DNA of 48,502 nt from Bacteroidales bacterium (GTDB lineage: Bacteria; Bacteroidota; Bacteroidia; Bacteroidales; WCHB1-69): positions 1 to 48,502 of the forward strand of contig JAGCFD010000039.1 of assembly GCA_017650305.1 (NCBI GenBank), read 5' to 3'. Shown in pieces: positions 1 through 11,542 of this stretch. Under the pieces are notes generated by a model. It did not search any database and had not been told where the DNA came from. It saw only the letters and a list, made by a program, of their open reading frames with translations. The stretch's first letter is position 1. The number at the start of each line of letters is the position of its first letter. A program made the position numbers and the translations under genes.

Positions 1-99
1 CTTTGCAGACTGAATCAACAACTTGAGGTTATCAGCCTCCGGGCGGATAGTCGTTGTGATTTGCTTTTAAAATGTATCTTTGCAGACTGAATCAACAAC
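1..99 (+). CRISPR. 3' end of a type II CRISPR array (one partial and one full 47-bp repeat)
   Basis: A 47-bp unit at 53-99 begins GTTGTGATTTGC and ends GAATCAACAAC. Its last 22 bases recur exactly at 1-22, and the two copies are separated by a 30-bp spacer at 23-52. Repeats of 46-48 bp with 30-bp spacers are usual for Bacteroidota type II-C loci. The first 14-15 repeat bases match the anti-repeat of the tracrRNA upstream of cas9, which fixes the crRNA strand as plus. The array therefore runs towards the 3' end of the cas operon, which is on the minus strand. No further repeat follows base 99, so this is the terminal unit; the rest of the array and any leader lie left of the window. The target of the single visible spacer is unknown. 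Confidence 0.93.
75..82 (+). promoter_or_regulatory. Bacteroidota -7 promoter box inside the CRISPR repeat
   Basis: Repeat positions 23-30 read TATCTTTG, an exact match to the Bacteroidota -7 consensus TAnnTTTG. A TTG at repeat positions 2-4 lies 18 bp upstream, close to the usual 19-21 bp for the -33 element. The same TATCTTTG box precedes several ordinary genes in this window. If active, transcription would start near the 3' end of each repeat and read into the next spacer. This is inferred from sequence only. Confidence 0.5.
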
Positions 100-208: not shown

Positions 209-1476
<1,268 letters not shown>

Positions 1477-1477
1477 A

Positions 1478-2308
1478 CTATTTTAGAGATTTTTGTTTCT
1501 CCGAGGGTGGCAAAAAATTGTTTGGTGTGGAAACGCTTCTTCCCAGTTCCTTTTCCGTCTCCTTGCGTGCGACACCGGCCACTTTTCCACCGCGTTTGGC
1601 GATTTTTTTGCTTTCAGAAAAAGTATCAGGTTCCTCTTTTTGAGAAATCTCCGTGGTGACGCGCTCACCCAGCATCGTGAAGATCAGTTCCAAATCATCC
1701 ATGTGATCACGGAGGTTTTGGTTTTTCCTCGTCAAGCCTTTGAATTCCTTATACTCGGAAGGGGTCATTCCAAAAGTGGCTTTTGAGATTTCTGCTGTCA
1801 AAATGGCAAAGTCCCGTTCTTCGGTTATGCCGCGCCGTTTCCACTCATCGGTCAGGTTCTGACGGATGGCAATGCCTCGCAGGCGTTTGTCTATCCAATC
1901 TTTAGGGTATCCTTTTTTTTCGTAGAGTTCCTTCATGCGTTCCTGAGCGAGTTCGGGATTCTCAATCTCCAGCATACGCTCATAGCCGACCTGTGCCAGC
2001 CATTGCTTGAAGGGTTCAGCTTTAGGTGAAGGTATGGATTGGACTATCCGGAAAAGACCTTTCACATTAGCTGACTGCACTTTACGTTTTTTGCCATCCA
2101 GTGCAATCATTTCTACAGGGGTACAAATTGTACCCCAGTTGAGATTCAAGGCCTCGTCGCGCGAACGCATTTTTTTGATGTATTGCTTAGGGTCTTTACT
2201 ATCCGTCAAAGCTTCAACAACGTCATATACCGAAAAATACCATTGCTCTTCTTCTTCATTCCATACGGAACGGATTTTCCTGTCTTGAAATAGTTTGATG
2301 TTGCTCAT
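1478..2308 (-). CDS. BRO-N domain protein (phage antirepressor/DinD-like) inside the cas operon
   Basis: This 276-aa protein has a BRO-N domain at about residues 10-110. Visible family marks are WYFSVYDVVEALTDS, then GLFRIVQSIPSPKAEPF and KQWLAQVGYERM, followed by the conserved C-terminal part with LTDEWKRRGI, LRDHMDDLELIFTMLGE and the basic tail around KKIAKRGGKVAGVARKE. The same architecture occurs in stand-alone BRO family proteins of Bacteroidota and in DNA-damage-inducible protein D; BRO-N domains bind DNA in phage and baculovirus proteins. The gene overlaps the cas9 stop by 4 bp (ATGA) and ends one base before cas1, so it belongs to the operon. It shows no Csn2 or Cas4 features. The family is secure; a role in adaptation, regulation or damage response is my inference from position only. 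No disruption is seen. Confidence 0.85.
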   Translation of the reverse strand: MSNIKLFQDRKIRSVWNEEEEQWYFSVYDVVEALTDSKDPKQYIKKMRSRDEALNLNWGTICTPVEMIALDGKKRKVQSANVKGLFRIVQSIPSPKAEPFKQWLAQVGYERMLEIENPELAQERMKELYEKKGYPKDWIDKRLRGIAIRQNLTDEWKRRGITEERDFAILTAEISKATFGMTPSEYKEFKGLTRKNQNLRDHMDDLELIFTMLGERVTTEISQKEEPDTFSESKKIAKRGGKVAGVARKETEKELGRSVSTPNNFLPPSEKQKSLK

Positions 2309-5300
2309 AGTTTTTGATTGTTAAATTCAATGATGTTGCCTATTCGGTCAACCTTCAATGGAATGCAAGTTTCCTTTATCATTTCTCCTGTAATGGCACG
2401 TTCAGCTTTGTTCGTCGAAGTAAACTCCACTTTATCTACAATTGTTTTGGCTACTTTTTCATCTATAAAGAAGCACTGATTCCCCGTGCAACTTACCATC
2501 TTATATATCCTTTTCTTGTCAATCACCTTAACACCATCTCTCAACTCTTCAGCAGTAGGCAAATATACCAAATCATTGGGTGAGAGAATGAATAGCAGAT
2601 GTGCATCGGCAGAAACGAGTTCTTTCTCTTTCAGACAGGTTTCAATATTATCGTGCCATTTTGCTCCAAACTTTTTCTGGCAATCAACCATCTCATTGAG
2701 CGGAATGGTCAAATATGAACGAACATTCACCATCTCTTCACTTTCCTTATTCAATTTATCAGAACTAAAAATTGCAAAGAAGAGGTTTGTTCCCTTGTCG
2801 GCTTCAACAAATTTTTTAGCCTTGCACCCAGTTTGTCCAATAGAATACTTGTTACCACTTTCGTAACGACGCACTTTATAAATCGGTTTATGTGGCCTAC
2901 CGCCATTCAGTTCGACAATGTTGCGGTTCATTTCATCAATGCCATCAGCAGAAAAAGCAAGTTCAGGATTATTGTCTTTAGTTTGCAGATGAGCTTTTAG
3001 AATCTTCTGAATGCCTGTATCAGTAATGCCGCCAATTCTATCTAAAGCCTTGTTATATTCTTTTATCCCTGACATATAATCGACCAAATCACTCATAAAA
3101 CGAGTAGCGAAATATCGTTCTTTGGTCTCTTGAGTAAAATAGTAAACCTCTATTTTCTTAATATCTACATCCGACCAAACATCTTTGTTGTCCTCGACAT
3201 ATTTCTTGATGTCTTTGGAAGTCTTACCTTTCGCCAATAACTCAAGCACTTTCTGTTTGAAATCTTTATTGACGATGCGCTTGGGACTTTTCAGAGCTTC
3301 ATTCAAAGATACTGACTTTTTAAAACGCAAGTTAACTTCTCCCCAACCGGTGTCTTTATGCATCGATTTGCGGATTGCCCAACTATCCCCTTGCGCTTGT
3401 ATCACCATAACCTTCTTGCCTTCATTGTCAAAATGCTGATAAAGGTTTGTTGTTTTGTTGATGACACGCAAGTTTTGCTTGAAACTAACAATGATGCTTT
3501 CCAGAGTTTGCCTTGCATCCGTGGTGAACGAATCCCAAGGTGTGGTAAACTCTTTGGCTATTTCACGTTCTTTGCCGTCAATCAACATTTTCTCGAATCT
3601 ACGAAGCTTGCGCTGTAGCTGATAGCGGTTTGCATTATGTTTTGAATGTGCCGCCTCATTATTGAGCAGGTTCACGTGATTGCGTGTGGTACAAGCAATC
3701 ACAATGGCATCCATTGCATGATGCCGATGGTCAATACGTTTTTTGTTGAAACCTTTCTGAAGTTCAAGCGGCATGTCTGGCACCTCGTGGCCATTAATGA
3801 TCTTCGTAAAACAATCTTTTCCTGTTAATTGGTTCAACCTTTTGAAACGTGGCAGGACAATGCTGTTCCATACGTCGTTCATTCCCCAGTCTTTCTTCAG
3901 TCGGTCAGTGATGGAACCGTTGCACGAGATAACATTCTTTGAAACAGCCTCCTGCTCCCATTCGCCATTGGCATCCTTTTCACGCACAATATTCGACAGC
4001 AGGCCTTTCACCAACTTGCTAATATAGCGGCTGTCGTTCAACTGACGTTCAATAAAATCATCGGGAATATCTTCCATCAGCAGTTTTCTCATTTTGGGGC
4101 GGTTGGATGAATAGTGGTCTTTTACGAATTTTTGATATGCTTCAACTGAAAATATTTCAACCACTTTCCCTTGGCTTAACTGTACTTTTTCTCCATGGTG
4201 TGCCTTGATGAACTCATACCCCAGAAGTTTGTCCTTCAGTTTGTTTACCTCAGCTTCGCAAATCACTTTATTGCTGAATGAATCATCGAAGTAGCGCGAT
4301 TGGGGAATCACATGTTCAATCTCGTATGCGGATGTGAATAGCTTGGCAAGTGGAATCACTTCGCCCGTGTAGGGGGAACGGTATTTTTGTTCCAACCAAA
4401 GTTTGTACTTGGAAATCTCCAACTTTGAAGGCTGTGCTGTTTTGGAAATTTTGTTGACGAAATCAAAATCTTTGTCATCTTTGGTGAGATTGTCCAATGC
4501 ACTTTCTTCGTAAATCCTCAAAATATCCTGCTGACTTGGCGAATACGGACGGACATTCTCAATCTCATATTCAGGATTCGTAAACTCCATCAGCATCGCC
4601 TTTATGCGCAGATTGGCGCTCTCGTTCTCTAATATACGCTCCGTCATCTTTTTGCGCTTGTCGGCTGGATTCTTCATCTCACGCCCAAGTTCCACGTGGA
4701 TCTCGTCTATCTGCCCCTCTTGTCTCCAGATGTCGCGAACGGTTCGCAGCGTTTCGGTTATCACCTGTTCCACGATAGGATTTCGCAATGAATGTTGTTT
4801 GAATTTCTTAAGATAAAGGTCTATATCTTCGGGCTTTCCCCATTTCTCTATTTCCTTAGCTTCGGAGTGGCGACCATAAACGATGTAACACGCCAACCAT
4901 ACAGGCAAACCTCTGAAATGAGAAATGTCAATCAGATTAATCGCCTTTTCTCTAACTCGAGTTTTGATATAGTCGTCATATTCGCCAGAGATAATCTTCT
5001 CTATTTTGTCCCGGGTTTCAGGGTTGATGCTACTTTCGTTCCAGAATTTCCCCATTCGCATCAGAGGAAGCAACTTTTTTATTGCCTTCTCGGAATAGGA
5101 ACCGTAGTCTTTTTTGAAAGGCTTCACTTTACTGAACACTTCTACAAAACTGTCAGACAACTCGTATTTCTCAGCAAACTTAGCCAAGGCCTTGTTGATT
5201 TCGATTTTATCTTCAACCGAATATAAAATGTGCCAAAGATGCATTTCTGTCTCGGGCGAAAGGAAGTCAGCATTGACACAGCACTTGGTCAATCCAGCAA

Positions 5301-6897
5301 GGATGGTAGCTCTTGTTTCATTGCAAGGATATTCCTTATCCTCCACATAATTCCAACGATAGGGATAATGTTCTTGTCCTTTCAGTTTCTTTATCTTAAA
5401 ATAGGAGTTCAACAATGTGTCTTGCTTGATGGAGGCTCTATCATTCAGCCAATCAAACAGCTTAACGTATTCATCTTCTGACTTTAAGAACTCTTGAGTG
5501 ACGTCAATATCGTCTTCTCGTTGATAAATCCTAATGTATTGCACAAACTGCCACAATCGAAATTCTTGGAATAACGGATTCGATTTGGCAACACACTTCA
5601 CTGGATATGGTTTTCCTTCTTTGTCATATCGCGTTTCATAAGGGCAGTCGCTAATCAGCGATTTCTTGCTCTTTAGAGGACGTTGGTAAAACAGAATATC
5701 TTCAACAAACAACTTGGTAAAGTCTGGTTTTGCAATATTGTTCCTATGGGCTTCATTATTTGGGTACAACAGTTCAATGCAACTCTGATAGAGTTCTGCA
5801 TCTTGTAATTCGGGAACAAAAGTCTTCTGCTTTTCAAGAATATTCTTTAATTCTTCTTTATAAAATTTGCGTTCTACCGTTCGGACCAATTTACCGATTA
5901 TTTTTTGATCGGGTTTCTGTAATAGGGTGTCGTAGATGTAGCAACCGATGGTCTTGTCACTATTATTGAGATCTTCTTCCGTTTTTATTTTTATCAACTT
6001 CCACTCACTATCCCACTCAGCTTCAGTCGGAATCCTAAACCTTCTGCTTAATTGTCCGTTTTCATCATATTTATCATTACCGTCTTTATCTATATCAACA
6101 GTGGCTATGATATTTTTTTCTTGTCCAATCCAATTCGGAACATTTTTCTTGAATATTTTGCCAACATCTCCATTTTGAAGAACAATGGTTAAAACTTTCA
6201 GCTCCTTATAGACTTGCCCAGTATCAATAATATCAGCAATGATTTGCCTGTCAAAATATTGTCTCGTTTTGGGTGACACTTTTTCTTCCTCATCCTCGCC
6301 ACGTAATTGATAATAGCCGCGTTTTTGATTGAATTGTAATAATATCCATGCAAGCTCCTCTTTTTCGAGTTTTTGTGTCAACGCCTTTTTGCGCAAATAA
6401 TATATTGTCCAGTCATAAGGAACCTTTTTCCCGTTTGCAACGAGTTGAGGCTGGTTTTGGGCAAAGTCCGCCAACATCTCATTGAATGAGTTTAAGAAAA
6501 GAAATTCTGCTCTCCCTTCCTGATTGACTCTCCAAGCCAGTTTGGGTTCTTTGTTGTCTATAAATTTACCATATTGATCAATTTGTTCGGCTAAGTGGTC
6601 TGGTAAGAAACCCATATTCTTCAGCACCCGCAACATGCGCTCACGGCGGAGAAGATACCGTTCATGAATGCGACGAACCATTCTGAATTTTGTTCTATCC
6701 GCCGTTTGCGATTTAGTGTTACCCCTGTCAAAATCGCCTAAAGTGCCTTCATCCATTGGAATAATTCTGCTGCCTGCAGCACTAATTTCCACAGGTTTCA
6801 GGTACGTTGTTTCATTTTCGCGGGTAACTTCCTCCGCATTCACCACCGCCCAACCGATGCTGTTGGTGCCTAAGTCAAGTCCTAATATTTTTTTCAT
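2305..6897 (-). CDS. cas9: CRISPR-associated endonuclease Cas9 (large type II-C form)
   Basis: This 1530-aa RNA-guided DNA nuclease has all catalytic segments. RuvC-I is GLDLGTNSIGWA with Asp8. The Arg-rich bridge helix spans about 58-97. RuvC-II is IHVELGRE with Glu736. The HNH core is YEIEHVIPQS with His862, then Asn876 and Asn885. RuvC-III is HHAMDA with His1060 and Asp1063. Wedge and PAM-interacting regions fill roughly 1150-1530. It is longer than most II-C Cas9s (about 1000-1400 aa) but similar to other large Bacteroidota forms. The absence of csn2 and cas4 argues for II-C. The ATG is 16 bp downstream of the tracrRNA terminator, without a visible promoter or Shine-Dalgarno between. The gene looks more AT-rich than the flanking housekeeping genes. 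No catalytic residue is missing. Confidence 0.97.
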   Translation of the reverse strand: MKKILGLDLGTNSIGWAVVNAEEVTRENETTYLKPVEISAAGSRIIPMDEGTLGDFDRGNTKSQTADRTKFRMVRRIHERYLLRRERMLRVLKNMGFLPDHLAEQIDQYGKFIDNKEPKLAWRVNQEGRAEFLFLNSFNEMLADFAQNQPQLVANGKKVPYDWTIYYLRKKALTQKLEKEELAWILLQFNQKRGYYQLRGEDEEEKVSPKTRQYFDRQIIADIIDTGQVYKELKVLTIVLQNGDVGKIFKKNVPNWIGQEKNIIATVDIDKDGNDKYDENGQLSRRFRIPTEAEWDSEWKLIKIKTEEDLNNSDKTIGCYIYDTLLQKPDQKIIGKLVRTVERKFYKEELKNILEKQKTFVPELQDAELYQSCIELLYPNNEAHRNNIAKPDFTKLFVEDILFYQRPLKSKKSLISDCPYETRYDKEGKPYPVKCVAKSNPLFQEFRLWQFVQYIRIYQREDDIDVTQEFLKSEDEYVKLFDWLNDRASIKQDTLLNSYFKIKKLKGQEHYPYRWNYVEDKEYPCNETRATILAGLTKCCVNADFLSPETEMHLWHILYSVEDKIEINKALAKFAEKYELSDSFVEVFSKVKPFKKDYGSYSEKAIKKLLPLMRMGKFWNESSINPETRDKIEKIISGEYDDYIKTRVREKAINLIDISHFRGLPVWLACYIVYGRHSEAKEIEKWGKPEDIDLYLKKFKQHSLRNPIVEQVITETLRTVRDIWRQEGQIDEIHVELGREMKNPADKRKKMTERILENESANLRIKAMLMEFTNPEYEIENVRPYSPSQQDILRIYEESALDNLTKDDKDFDFVNKISKTAQPSKLEISKYKLWLEQKYRSPYTGEVIPLAKLFTSAYEIEHVIPQSRYFDDSFSNKVICEAEVNKLKDKLLGYEFIKAHHGEKVQLSQGKVVEIFSVEAYQKFVKDHYSSNRPKMRKLLMEDIPDDFIERQLNDSRYISKLVKGLLSNIVREKDANGEWEQEAVSKNVISCNGSITDRLKKDWGMNDVWNSIVLPRFKRLNQLTGKDCFTKIINGHEVPDMPLELQKGFNKKRIDHRHHAMDAIVIACTTRNHVNLLNNEAAHSKHNANRYQLQRKLRRFEKMLIDGKEREIAKEFTTPWDSFTTDARQTLESIIVSFKQNLRVINKTTNLYQHFDNEGKKVMVIQAQGDSWAIRKSMHKDTGWGEVNLRFKKSVSLNEALKSPKRIVNKDFKQKVLELLAKGKTSKDIKKYVEDNKDVWSDVDIKKIEVYYFTQETKERYFATRFMSDLVDYMSGIKEYNKALDRIGGITDTGIQKILKAHLQTKDNNPELAFSADGIDEMNRNIVELNGGRPHKPIYKVRRYESGNKYSIGQTGCKAKKFVEADKGTNLFFAIFSSDKLNKESEEMVNVRSYLTIPLNEMVDCQKKFGAKWHDNIETCLKEKELVSADAHLLFILSPNDLVYLPTAEELRDGVKVIDKKRIYKMVSCTGNQCFFIDEKVAKTIVDKVEFTSTNKAERAITGEMIKETCIPLKVDRIGNIIEFNNQKL

Positions 6898-6944: not shown

Positions 6945-6993
6945 GAATGTTTTCACAACGGAATAATCCTTATTGTGATTTGCTTTAAATTGT
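6914..6993 (-). ncRNA. tracrRNA upstream of cas9
   Basis: Plus-strand bases 6973-6986 are identical to repeat positions 2-15, so the minus-strand RNA carries a 14-nt perfect anti-repeat, plus weaker complementarity (AAA, TGT, TGCA) up to about 6999. Downstream on the RNA come a small GGA/TCC hairpin, a GUUGUGA segment and the terminator stem, the usual order anti-repeat, nexus, terminator. The 5' end is set at about 6993 from the -7 box at 6998-7005; this gives an RNA of about 80 nt. The GUUGUGA segment repeats the first seven repeat bases and could pair with the end of the anti-repeat (6953-6958 with 6973-6978). That may be a normal nexus feature of this tracrRNA group. The exact 5' end is inferred. 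Confidence 0.85.
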
Positions 6994-6997
6994 GCTG

Positions 6998-7005
6998 CAA
7001 AAATA
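6998..7005 (-). promoter_or_regulatory. Promoter -7 box for the tracrRNA
   Basis: The minus strand reads TATTTTTG, matching TAnnTTTG, and places a start at about 6991-6993, just inside the anti-repeat. No good -33 TTG lies at 19-21 bp; a TTTG lies 11 bp upstream instead, the same arrangement as in the repeat. Confidence 0.55.
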
Positions 7006-7074
7006 CTATTTTATTTCAAATCTCCGAATAAAACATATAAAAAATTTAAAAAAAAATTCAATCAGCGCATCTTT

Positions 7075-8108: not shown

Positions 8109-8116
8109 CAAAAGTA
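8109..8116 (-). promoter_or_regulatory. -7 box for the radical SAM gene
   Basis: The minus strand reads TACTTTTG (TAnnTTTG). It lies within the longer open frame, which is the reason for choosing a start codon downstream of it. No clear -33 element. Confidence 0.5.
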
Positions 8117-8160
8117 AGAAAAATAGCCCTACCTTCATCGGCCAAAAAGAGAAAAAACTA

Positions 8161-8168
8161 TATCTTTG
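8161..8168 (+). promoter_or_regulatory. -7 box for the TonB receptor gene
   Basis: TATCTTTG matches TAnnTTTG exactly and sits 31 bp before the ATG at 8199. The alternative TTG start at 8166 falls inside this box and is therefore rejected. Confidence 0.65.
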
Positions 8169-8198
8169 CAGCCTTTTTCAAAGAGACATCTTATAAAT

Positions 8199-10604
8199 AT
8201 GCGTCACAACTTCACACTCCGGCTCTTCGCGTTTTTCGCACTGACAGTCAGCACCTTCTCGATGTGGGCGCAAAACGTCACTCTGTCAGGGACCATCAAA
8301 GACGATTCCAACGGGGAGACGTTGTTGGGTGTCTATATTCTGCTTTCCGACACCATGCATCATAAAGTAGTGGATGGGTGCGTCACCAACCAGGCGGGCT
8401 TTTACTCCATCACGGTTCCGGCCGGAGTCTATGAGGTGAGCGTCAACTACATGTCGTACAAGGAGCAGAAGACCGTCATGGATCTGCGCAAGAGTCAGCG
8501 ATACGACATTGATTTAGTGCCGGATGCCATCCTGGGCGAGGAGGTGGTGATCAAGGGAGAACGTACCAACAACAATGTGGAGAGTGCGGATGTAGGCCGC
8601 ATGGAGATGAAGATTGAGACTATCAAGGCGTTGCCGGCGTTGATGGGCGAGGCGGACATCATCCGTTCCATCCAATTGCTGCCGGGAGTCCAATCGGGCG
8701 GCGAGGGCAACAGCGGCTATTACGTGCGCGGCGGCGGCACCGACCAGAACCTCATCATGCTTGACGAGGCCACCATCTACAACTGCGGTCACCTTTTCGG
8801 CTTTTTCTCCATCTTCAACGCTGACGCCGTCAAGAACATCGAGATGATCAAGTCGGGCATGCCGGCCAACTACGGCGGGCGCGCTGCCTCCATCCTCAAC
8901 GTCACCCAGAAAGAGGGCAACATGAAACGATTTGAGGTGGACGGCGGCATCGGACTCATCTTCTCGCATCTAACCCTTCAAGGACCCTTCAAAAAGGACA
9001 AGGCGTCATTCCTCATCTCGGCACGCCGCACCTATGCTGACCTGATCATCCAGCCCTTCCTCAAGCCTACCTCTCCGCTAAAGGGCATGGGCTTCTACTT
9101 TTACGATCTTAACGCCAAGTTCAACGTCGTCATCAACAACAAACACAGGCTCTATTTCGGGGCCTATTATGGCAATGACCACTACGGCTTCCAATCAAAC
9201 TCTCAGCAGACCAAGGCCATTTTCGTTTGGCGCAACGCAGCCGCCTCCGCGCGCTGGAACTACATCATCAGCAACAAGCTCTTTCTCAACACCTCCGCCA
9301 CCTTCAGCTACTACGATTTTGGCACGGAGATGCGTCTGGACGTCTATGAGTTCAAGCTCAACTCTGGCATCCGCGACTACACGCTGAAGAGCGAGCTCAC
9401 CATCTTGCCCATCCCGAAGGTCACCATCAAGACTGGCGTACACAACATCTTCCACGTGTGCCATCCAGGACAATATGCCGTGCAGGCAGGCACCGGCTTT
9501 GACTTCTCCCTGCCGAAAGTGCAGCCATATCTTGCCAACGAATTCAGCTTATATGCTCACACCGAGTACGACCCTACCCCATGGTTGAAACTCAACATGG
9601 GTGTTCGTTATACCAACTTCACCCACTTAGGCGCCTTCACCCGCTATGTACTTGACGACCTTGGATATGTGGCCGACTCCATTATCTATCGCCCCGGGCA
9701 GACAATCAGCCAATATAACAAAGTTGAACCGCGCTTCTCCGCTCGTTTCCTGCTCGACTCCCTGACATCCATCAAGGTGTCCGCCACTCTAAACTACCAA
9801 TTTCTGCACCAGATCTCCATCGCCAGCATCACCTTACCTACCGACGTCTGGATGCCCTCCACGGACATCCTGAAGCCCCAGCGGGTTTGGCAATACTCCC
9901 TCGGCGTGTTCCGCAACTTCCATCAGAACATGTTTGAGGCCTATATCGACCTATATTTCAAACAGATGTACAACCTGGCCGAATATCGTGACGGCCTCGA
10001 CTTCAGCTTCGTCACCATCAATCCGGACCAGCTGTATGTCTTTGGCAAAGGCTGGGCCACCGGGGCCGAGTTCTTTGTCCGCAAAACCCGTGGGCGTTTC
10101 ACCGGATTCATCGGCTACACGTTAGGCTTCACGCGAAGACAGTTTGACGACCTCAACAACGGCGAGCCCTTCTGGGCCAAGTACGATCGTCGCCATGACG
10201 TGTCTATCAGCTTGTGCTACGAGATCATCCGCAACAAGCTGAGCGTTTCAGCCCTTTGGGTATATCAGACCGGCAACACCATGACCATCCCCATAGGCTA
10301 CTATTTCTACATGGGATCCTACATCACTGAGTATAGCGGTCGCAACGAATTCCGCATCAAGCCTTACCACCGTCTCGACATCTCATTGGACTGGACCATC
10401 AAGAAGACCCGGAAATGGGAAACCGGCCTCAACTTCTCCATCTACAATGTTTATAACCGCAAAAACCCGTTCTTCATCTTCTTCGAAACAAGAACCAACG
10501 CCGACTTCTCGCCTGAGAACCCCAATTTCTCCTTGGAGACACAGGCCTATCAGATGAGCTTGTTCCCCATCATCCCGTCTATCACTTGGAACTTTAAATT
10601 CTAA
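8199..10604 (+). CDS. TonB-dependent outer-membrane receptor with carboxypeptidase-like N-domain
   Basis: This 801-aa protein begins with a signal peptide ending near MWAQ (residue about 24). A carboxypeptidase-regulatory-like beta-sandwich follows at about 26-105, then a plug domain at about 110-230 with LPGVQSGGEGNSGYYVRGG and the SGMPANYGGR segment. A beta-barrel ends in an aromatic residue (NFKF), the usual outer-membrane assembly signal. Such receptors import siderophores, vitamins or oligomers using TonB energy. The substrate cannot be read here. It lacks the SusC-specific layout; the next gene, 5 bp downstream, is a DUF4249 lipoprotein rather than SusD. That receptor/DUF4249 pairing is common in Bacteroidota. 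Confidence 0.9.
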   Translation: MRHNFTLRLFAFFALTVSTFSMWAQNVTLSGTIKDDSNGETLLGVYILLSDTMHHKVVDGCVTNQAGFYSITVPAGVYEVSVNYMSYKEQKTVMDLRKSQRYDIDLVPDAILGEEVVIKGERTNNNVESADVGRMEMKIETIKALPALMGEADIIRSIQLLPGVQSGGEGNSGYYVRGGGTDQNLIMLDEATIYNCGHLFGFFSIFNADAVKNIEMIKSGMPANYGGRAASILNVTQKEGNMKRFEVDGGIGLIFSHLTLQGPFKKDKASFLISARRTYADLIIQPFLKPTSPLKGMGFYFYDLNAKFNVVINNKHRLYFGAYYGNDHYGFQSNSQQTKAIFVWRNAAASARWNYIISNKLFLNTSATFSYYDFGTEMRLDVYEFKLNSGIRDYTLKSELTILPIPKVTIKTGVHNIFHVCHPGQYAVQAGTGFDFSLPKVQPYLANEFSLYAHTEYDPTPWLKLNMGVRYTNFTHLGAFTRYVLDDLGYVADSIIYRPGQTISQYNKVEPRFSARFLLDSLTSIKVSATLNYQFLHQISIASITLPTDVWMPSTDILKPQRVWQYSLGVFRNFHQNMFEAYIDLYFKQMYNLAEYRDGLDFSFVTINPDQLYVFGKGWATGAEFFVRKTRGRFTGFIGYTLGFTRRQFDDLNNGEPFWAKYDRRHDVSISLCYEIIRNKLSVSALWVYQTGNTMTIPIGYYFYMGSYITEYSGRNEFRIKPYHRLDISLDWTIKKTRKWETGLNFSIYNVYNRKNPFFIFFETRTNADFSPENPNFSLETQAYQMSLFPIIPSITWNFKF

Positions 10605-10609
10605 CAATT

Positions 10610-11542
10610 ATGAAAAAAGCACTCTACCATATCATCATCTTGCTCACCTTGGTTTGTCTGGGCTGTCAGACCGAGATAGAGGTAGAGTTGCCCGACTACA
10701 CCTCCAAGCTGGTGATTGAGGGGACCATCGAGAACGACAAACCGGCTATGGTGGTCCTATCAAGAAGCATTCCCTTCTTTTCCGAAATCGACATTCAATA
10801 TATCCTGCAGAATGTGCTGGTGCGGGATGCCGAGGTGTGGGTCACGGCTGACGACGGGGAGACCGAGCAGCTGTCGTTCCAGTTATACGGGGAATCGCCC
10901 TATTACATGGCATTTGTCAGCCCCACCTTGCGGGGACGCGAGCGCATGGGCTACACCCTGACCGTCATTTGCAACGACACGACTTACACCGCACACACCA
11001 CCATCCCGTCCACTTTCGACCTCGACAGCATCTGGATAGACTCCACCTACATAACTGGCGAATTCAACAATCATAGGGGAAATGTGCGTTGTCTGCTAAC
11101 CGACAATCCGGCCGAAGACAACTACTATTCCTTCTCTGTCAAGGTGCGCAACCACTTATTCACCGATCGTCTTTGGGTCTATTCATTGCCTATGGCCTTT
11201 GACGACCAGACCTTCAACGGGCAGACCTTCAACTTTGAGGTGCTGCGCGCCGGCGTTTCCTCCTTCCTGATGCCCGAAATGGACGAAGAGACCAGGAAGG
11301 CCTACTTCAGTTTCAACTATATGCGCGGGGACACCATCTATGTGCGGCACAGTCTCATCGACCACGAGACGTACCGTTTCATGATCACGGGCGGAAGTGA
11401 TGCCATATTCGGATCCAACCCATTCACCAACCCCGCCCCTGTATCCTCCAATCTCAGAGGAGGCAACGTCTTGGGCAACTGGTCGGGGTTTGCCTCAAAA
11501 GTGGACACTATTATTTGGGAAAATGAAGACGTTGGCCGTTAG
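10610..11542 (+). CDS. DUF4249 family outer-membrane lipoprotein
   Basis: This 310-aa protein has a lipoprotein signal with Cys19 in CLGC. The mature part starts with the DUF4249 pattern EIEVELPDYTSKLVIEGTIEN and continues with a beta-rich domain typical of the family. DUF4249 proteins are encoded next to TonB-dependent receptors in Bacteroidota and probably act as surface partners, in a position analogous to SusD. Here the gene starts 5 bp after the receptor and is surely cotranscribed. The stop codon TAG is embedded in a heptamer repeat tract (GTTGGCC GTTAGCT GTTAACT), so the last codons were shaped by the repeat. Function beyond receptor partner is not known. Confidence 0.8.
   Translation: MKKALYHIIILLTLVCLGCQTEIEVELPDYTSKLVIEGTIENDKPAMVVLSRSIPFFSEIDIQYILQNVLVRDAEVWVTADDGETEQLSFQLYGESPYYMAFVSPTLRGRERMGYTLTVICNDTTYTAHTTIPSTFDLDSIWIDSTYITGEFNNHRGNVRCLLTDNPAEDNYYSFSVKVRNHLFTDRLWVYSLPMAFDDQTFNGQTFNFEVLRAGVSSFLMPEMDEETRKAYFSFNYMRGDTIYVRHSLIDHETYRFMITGGSDAIFGSNPFTNPAPVSSNLRGGNVLGNWSGFASKVDTIIWENEDVGR

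Follow-up and report, generated by a model that had tools for sequence, protein, structure and literature searches.

A Bro-N gene recurrently placed between cas9 and cas1 in Bacteroidales, with relatives in other CRISPR types and restriction operons

We identified a 276-amino-acid Bro-N gene between cas9 and cas1 of a type II CRISPR-Cas (clustered regularly interspaced short palindromic repeats) operon on a contig of a Bacteroidales bacterium (GCA_017650305.1, JAGCFD010000039.1; the whole stretch of 48,502 nucleotides analysed is termed the window). The gene lies directly upstream of 17 of the 36 type II cas1 genes found in the bacterium's family. Restriction systems and several other CRISPR types have relatives in comparable positions, pointing to a candidate shared helper of DNA-cutting immunity. 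The reading we favor, at a probability of roughly 40%, is of an accessory to such immunity, optional and swappable, whose product acts as a second layer by binding DNA that is cut or foreign.

The operon lies on the minus strand in the order cas9, Bro-N gene, cas1, cas2 and CRISPR array, with the following features:

1478..2308, minus strand: Bro-N accessory gene (PADLOC PDC-S13 family), 276 amino acids, between cas9 and cas1
1991..2278, minus strand: Bro-N domain, residues ~11-106 (Pfam match of 46.9 bits and DNA match coordinates)
2066..2197, minus strand: exchangeable patch within the Bro-N domain, residues ~38-81 (entropy, patch and core identities, sliding correlation, dN and dS)
1523..1957, minus strand: conserved helical C-terminal part, residues ~118-262 (alignments and predicted helices)
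2305..6897, minus strand: cas9, 1530 amino acids (TIGR01865, 397.9 bits, cut-off 100)
544..1476, minus strand: type II cas1, 310 amino acids (TIGR03639, 315.9 bits, cut-off 120)
209..547, minus strand: cas2, 112 amino acids (TIGR01573, 75.3 bits, cut-off 24.5)
53..99, no strand assigned: CRISPR repeat, 47 bp, the sole full copy, with a partial second copy at 1-22
23-52: CRISPR spacer, 30 nucleotides, between the partial and the full repeat
6954..7013, no strand assigned: candidate tracrRNA anti-repeat upstream of cas9 (local match to the CRISPR repeat)

The ATG of the Bro-N gene (2308-2306) overlaps the cas9 stop TGA (2307-2305) in an ATGA junction, and its own stop (1480-1478) is followed by the single base 1477 and then the cas1 ATG, leaving a 1-nucleotide gap. 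Coordinates and family models thus agree with the arrangement read from the letters alone in a first-pass annotation. The product would be made together with Cas9, probably through coupled translation. The operon fits the definition of type II-C, since cas9, cas1 and cas2 are present with no csn2 or cas4 among them; its fourth gene is Bro-N. The CRISPR array (1-105), downstream of cas2, is interrupted by the contig end.

The recurrence of this arrangement was assessed in 104 genomes of the window's family, in which 36 cas1 genes scored above the type II cut-off and slot contents were judged by coordinates and open frames. The 17 carriers are G000, G012, G014, G021, G022, G033, G043, G060, G066, G074 (two loci), G075, G078, G079, G082, G084 and G085, and cas9 is visible upstream in 14 of them. 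Fourteen of the 17 copies are uninterrupted, the others being broken (G060), carrying a frame break near the start (G075) or ended by the contig end (G082). The other family cas1 genes comprise seven joined straight to cas9 without Bro-N, one with RhuM instead (G010), five with other slot content or a different gene order (G045, G050, G053, G067 and G103), and six that encode a different, shorter Cas1 (36-46% identical). A 133-amino-acid Bro-N piece, 69% identical, was also seen in G067 (L140:10353-10754), upstream of cas9 rather than between cas9 and cas1. Among the family's PDC-S13 copies outside CRISPR loci, roughly half were judged by eye to be fragments or to contain stops, some of them due to contig ends.

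Because the arrangement recurs in 17 of the 36 genes, a chance insertion or artefact is ruled out. The earlier proposal of a stable operon member is upheld by this recurrence together with co-directional, tight packing and strong purifying selection on the core of the protein, and the counter-possibility that the arrangement exists in this genome only is not borne out.

The survey was extended beyond the family to an even draw of 393 genomes across the order. Type II cas1 was found in 140 genomes (145 genes, 142 of them outside the window's family), and among the matches listed Bro-N adjoins 1 of these 142 (G448). Upstream regions were read for 101 of the 142, with 41 judged by coordinates only, among the matches listed; the 100 read among the 141 non-G448 genes were the highest-scoring ones, apart from one passed over because its upstream sequence was missing. 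Cas9 was found nearby in 98 of these 100 loci, none of the 100 held Bro-N in the slot, and one held RhuM pieces. The cas9-Bro-N-cas1 arrangement is therefore frequent in the window's family but rarely met in the rest of the order. No paper joining Bro-N, Cas9 and Cas1, or placing Bro-N between cas9 and cas1, was found in the literature searched.

We also found that the slot between cas9 and cas1 accepts varied cargo: Bro-N, RhuM, RAYT-like (REP-associated tyrosine transposase-like) and DUF1016 genes. A DUF1016 remnant occupies it in G103, and RAYT-like genes of ~200-230 amino acids occupy it in 23 of the 98 II-C loci of the order:

L334:3326-3949, L344:3304-3993, L360:3388-4020, L378:3356-3979, L402:1340-1960 and 18 more loci: RAYT-like genes between cas9 and cas1

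Five RAYT-like members that were scanned scored 44-51 bits, below the family cut-off of 80, and a sixth gave no Pfam match; no paper joining the RAYT-like term with cas9 and cas1 was found in the literature searched.

The RhuM cargo bears most directly on Bro-N. In Bacteroides fragilis, RhuM-type open reading frames between cas1 and cas9 have already been described in most II-C strains (PMC5704556). The RhuM protein of G010 and Bro-N share their first five residues (MSNIK), which is likely a trace of replacement. In G033, Bro-N is preceded by a RhuM gene truncated at the contig end, of which the 3' part is present; these 172 amino acids are 80% identical to the G010 RhuM, and the same RhuM-then-Bro-N order recurs in L157 and L152, which belong to other CRISPR types.

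In print, RhuM has been interpreted as a toxin domain that has a guard or back-up role in restriction operons (PMC3710099). By analogy, Bro-N could stay silent while the nuclease works and harm the infected cell once a phage inhibitor blocks the nuclease, with the patch as sensor. Such a role is consistent with the slot shared or swapped with RhuM (G010, G033, L157 and, as a piece, L152), the naming of both families as PDC models by PADLOC, the Fic gene adjoining Bro-N in L185, and a profile alignment of the N-terminal part of RhuM with Bro-N (probability 41%, E 3e-4). We nevertheless consider it distinctly unlikely, as Pfam recognised no toxic domain, the best solved fold is that of a DNA-damage protein, and strong constraint of the core would not single out a toxin.

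The window protein matches the Bro-N Pfam model at 46.9 bits (cut-off 25.6). In addition, the PADLOC model PDC-S13 (PDLC04920) matches it over its full length at 399 bits (residues 2-273 of 276), as does PHROG 15286 at 345 bits. PDC-S13 is in PADLOC a single-gene candidate (PDC) only; stand-alone Bro-N homologues match this model too, and no paper naming it was found in the literature searched. Of the earlier label "BRO-N/DinD-like", the first half stands. The DinD identity (NF008573) was rejected at 20.7 bits against an NCBI cut-off of 242, the weak match being confined to the C-terminal part, where residues 141-226 align with DinD 141-226. The Bro-N and PDC-S13 models also match in the Escherichia coli control genome, presumably at DinD, and the window gene found no E. 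coli match at the DNA level.

A profile search for solved relatives gave no PDB sequence at E<=1. Among solved structures, the predicted fold lies nearest to DdrC, at a root-mean-square deviation (rmsd) of 11-15 Å. The product is probably a DNA-binding protein, in which the Bro-N domain is joined to a conserved helical C-terminal part.

Bro-N domains invite comparison with phage antirepressors, and the gene might encode a phage-derived regulator of this type that controls the cas operon or resident prophages, the patch setting which operator or repressor is bound. Besides the domain itself, weak matches to PHROG "anti-repressor Ant" families (36, 26 and 20 bits), relatives on 37 IMG/VR loci and an exchange of patches that would fit changing partners point this way. 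In one isolate of phage ICP1, a Bro-N/KilAC gene lies beside the CRISPR-Cas locus; the study proposes that it is regulatory, or else has no involvement in CRISPR activity (PMC8263062). The window protein has the Bro-N domain of a classic antirepressor and lacks a recognisable second, antirepressor-type C-terminal domain: no other Pfam family matched at E<=1e-3, so that neither KilAC nor ANT was recognised. The gene also sits inside the cas operon and not divergent from it, directly flanked by cas9 and cas1 without any repressor gene, and the same family occurs in unlike operons. A regulatory role is thus unlikely in our view.

Two parts of the protein evolve at different speeds. Strong purifying selection acts on the C-terminal core, whose ratio of nonsynonymous to synonymous change (dN/dS) was 0.01-0.04 in the five of nine pairs with a finite estimate. 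Cas1 gave 0.05-0.12 in three of nine pairs, and the core was lower in those three; synonymous distance was saturated in four of nine pairs for the core and six of nine for cas1.

By contrast, the patch at residues ~38-81 of the Bro-N domain is exchanged as a cassette. The window protein is 90% identical to one of the G074 copies (G074b) in the core and 30% identical in the patch, whereas it is 57% identical to the stand-alone L183 in the core and 77% identical in the patch. In 142 aligned rows, the correlation of a segment with the rest of the protein was 0.11-0.17 for three sliding windows within residues 24-83 and 0.67-0.81 for fourteen starting at residues 84 to 214; it was 0.59 for the last (224-263), 0.32-0.37 for the first two and 0.21-0.57 for those in between. 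The sliding test on the 18 type II rows alone did not separate patch from core. Core and patch distances were uncorrelated in 14 loci (r=0.03), and synonymous distances of patch versus core were 0.26 versus 1.60 (G000-G012) and 0.39 versus 2.46 (the two G074 loci), being equal or saturated in other pairs. G021 and G022 carry unlike patches despite 98% identical Cas1. The window genome (84.65% complete) yielded a single Bro-N match and no silent copies, which argues against programmed cassette switching.

The gene also moves alone: a solo copy in G002 (L035), 84% identical, lies between genes that look unrelated. This mobility and the varied slot cargo, including the RAYT-like genes, would suit a passenger, a lone mobile gene that lodges at operon junctions in defence loci but contributes nothing to them. 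We find this very doubtful given the core dN/dS, which is below that of cas1 wherever both are finite, the 14 uninterrupted copies of 17, and the presence of this Bro-N beside three Cas9 lineages that are only 23-31% identical to one another. Cas9 shuffling in II-C has already been reported (PMC12669027). In G021 and G022 (loci L033 and L037), where Cas9 is only 28% identical, the effector has been swapped beside the same adaptation genes.

In a quick tree of the core (residues 85-262, 143 rows), L035, the solo copy, groups with 18 type II-linked copies in a single clade (SH-aLRT 96); L155 and the type V-A copy L150 branch just outside it (support 88). The two V-A copies from Treponema fall in a 38-row clade (95) together with some of the restriction-linked ones (L297, L299 and L300). 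Holding the 23 type II, type V and L035 rows together was not rejected (p-AU 0.956), the held tree being 60 log units better; the type II rows alone were already together in the best tree, at a support of only 25. Type II and V copies may therefore form one clade, although non-rejection does not prove a single origin, and they group apart from most stand-alone copies. The type I CRISPR copies need four label changes on the core tree and, judged by it, are separate from those of types II and V.

The first-pass annotation had named agreement between the Bro-N and Cas1 trees as support. Such agreement is partial: it fails for the whole protein and is seen for the core. In Mantel tests on 15 loci, whole-protein distances followed neither Cas1 (r=-0.01, p=0.50) nor, clearly, Cas9 (r=0.25, p=0.07), which rejects strict co-evolution of the whole protein with Cas1. 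With the patch and the frame-broken G075 left out, exclusions chosen after the first result was seen, core distances followed Cas1 at r=0.45 (p=0.001, 14 loci) and, more weakly, Cas9 at r=0.28 (p=0.054); without L155 the correlation with Cas1 was r=0.56 (p=0.0003, 13 loci). Patch distances follow neither Cas1 nor Cas9.

A scan of an 84,980-species genome collection gave at least 570 relatives, of which the best 80 were taken as loci. At least 11 of these 80 genome-contig loci have cas genes, a lower bound because only a limited query set was used to look for them. Some contigs, among them L155 (labelled Eubacteriales), come from metagenome-assembled genomes and may be misbinned. Type II is represented by L149 (the locus of G085) and L155. 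Type V-A is represented by L151 (cas12a, Bro-N, cas4, cas1, cas2), by L152, which is alike with a RhuM piece before Bro-N, and by L150, the locus of G260 (cas12a, Bro-N and array, with no cas1 or cas2 adjoining). Cas12a occurs in 15 of the 393 order genomes and, among the matches listed, has Bro-N beside it only in G260. Type I-C includes L157 (cas7, RhuM, Bro-N, cas4), L211 (cas7, Bro-N, cas4) and L185 (Bro-N, Fic, cas4-like; L185:777-3067), the call for the last resting on the cas4-like piece only. In the type I-E locus L179, Bro-N lies 1 nucleotide from cas6e and 3 nucleotides from cas1e, in the order cas6e, Bro-N, cas1e. In type I-G, Bro-N lies beside cas3 (L193 and L202); two Cas3g-like genes were seen in L202, one on each side of it (L202:4137-7004 and 8110-11106).

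Relatives are also found in type I restriction loci (L297, L299 and L300) and type III restriction loci (L191 and others). Of 45 operonic neighbours listed, 43 were scanned; ResIII was found in seven, N6_Mtase in three and N6_N4_Mtase in three, and many were unrelated genes. Four of 50,697 phage records and 12 of 72,556 plasmid records carry relatives. In L294 (G374), an intact Bro-N gene is followed by the start of cas1 fused, as judged by eye, to the end of cas2 (L294:9860-9950) and then by degenerate repeats; cas1-cas2 therefore look deleted there.

These loci bear on the suggestion that the protein helps Cas1-Cas2, feeding them broken DNA ends as Csn2 or Cas4 do in other subtypes. In type II, V-A, I-C and I-E loci, Bro-N relatives do immediately precede an adaptation gene, cas1 or cas4, the core follows Cas1 better than Cas9, and a binder of DNA ends would suit the task. 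Yet the same family is present in restriction operons, which acquire nothing, and is found intact with cas1-cas2 apparently deleted (L294) or with no cas1 or cas2 adjoining (L150); moreover, 7 of the 36 family loci join cas9 to cas1 directly, and the whole protein shows no fit with Cas1. Bro-N is thus not a fourth adaptation gene restricted to cas1-cas2 loci in the manner of csn2 and cas4. We infer that it is not an obligatory spacer-acquisition factor, and a role tied to Cas1-Cas2 seems to us a poor prospect.

What the host operons have in common is DNA cutting, not acquisition. Likely DNA binding, a predicted fold of DNA-damage type, strong constraint outside the exchangeable patch and a position in which the protein is made with the nuclease suggest that it acts, as a second layer, on DNA that is cut or foreign. 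Under the accessory reading that we favor, the Bro-N protein would most likely bind cut or otherwise marked foreign DNA produced by the nuclease, and could hold or shield it so that broken phage DNA stays unrepaired or the host is warned. It would thereby form a second layer behind the primary nuclease, with the exchangeable patch as a putative specificity or recognition surface. A more specific and rather unlikely version is a break-binding helper with a DdrC-like fold and an exchangeable recognition cassette, common to both CRISPR classes and restriction, which would recognise nuclease-cut DNA, or DNA under repair by a phage protein, and block repair; if true, it would be a general second-strike module, its target set by the cassette carried. 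A gene common to types II, V-A, I-C, I-E and I-G and to restriction would indicate a requirement that DNA-cutting immune systems share, perhaps concerning the fate of cut DNA, and the natural patch variants make the question of recognition directly testable.

Compared with known systems, the window protein belongs over its full length to PADLOC PDC-S13, which is named as a single-gene candidate and is here part of a cas operon. DinD offers an alignable C-terminal stretch at a score far below its cut-off. DdrC of Deinococcus radiodurans, a DNA-damage-response protein of Deinococcus, provides the best solved fold, yet the search at E<=1 gave no sequence match to it and its domain arrangement is different (rmsd 11-15 Å); it is not known to have a CRISPR link. 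RhuM (PF13310, PADLOC PDC-S05) shares the cas9/cas1 slot, here in G010 and G033, and differs in its C-terminal part, while its N-terminal part is alignable to Bro-N only weakly. The ICP1 Bro-N/KilAC gene likewise adjoins cas genes and is already in print; unlike the window gene it is divergent, outside the operon, carries KilAC and resides in a phage (PMC8263062). Bro-N and RhuM are absent from the main text of a paper on class 2 accessory genes (PMC12669027). The PcrIIC1 and DUF3800 genes described there are of different families and, like Bro-N, are optional extra genes in some class 2 loci, part of a growing set of class 2 CRISPR accessory genes of which more are expected (PMC12669027).
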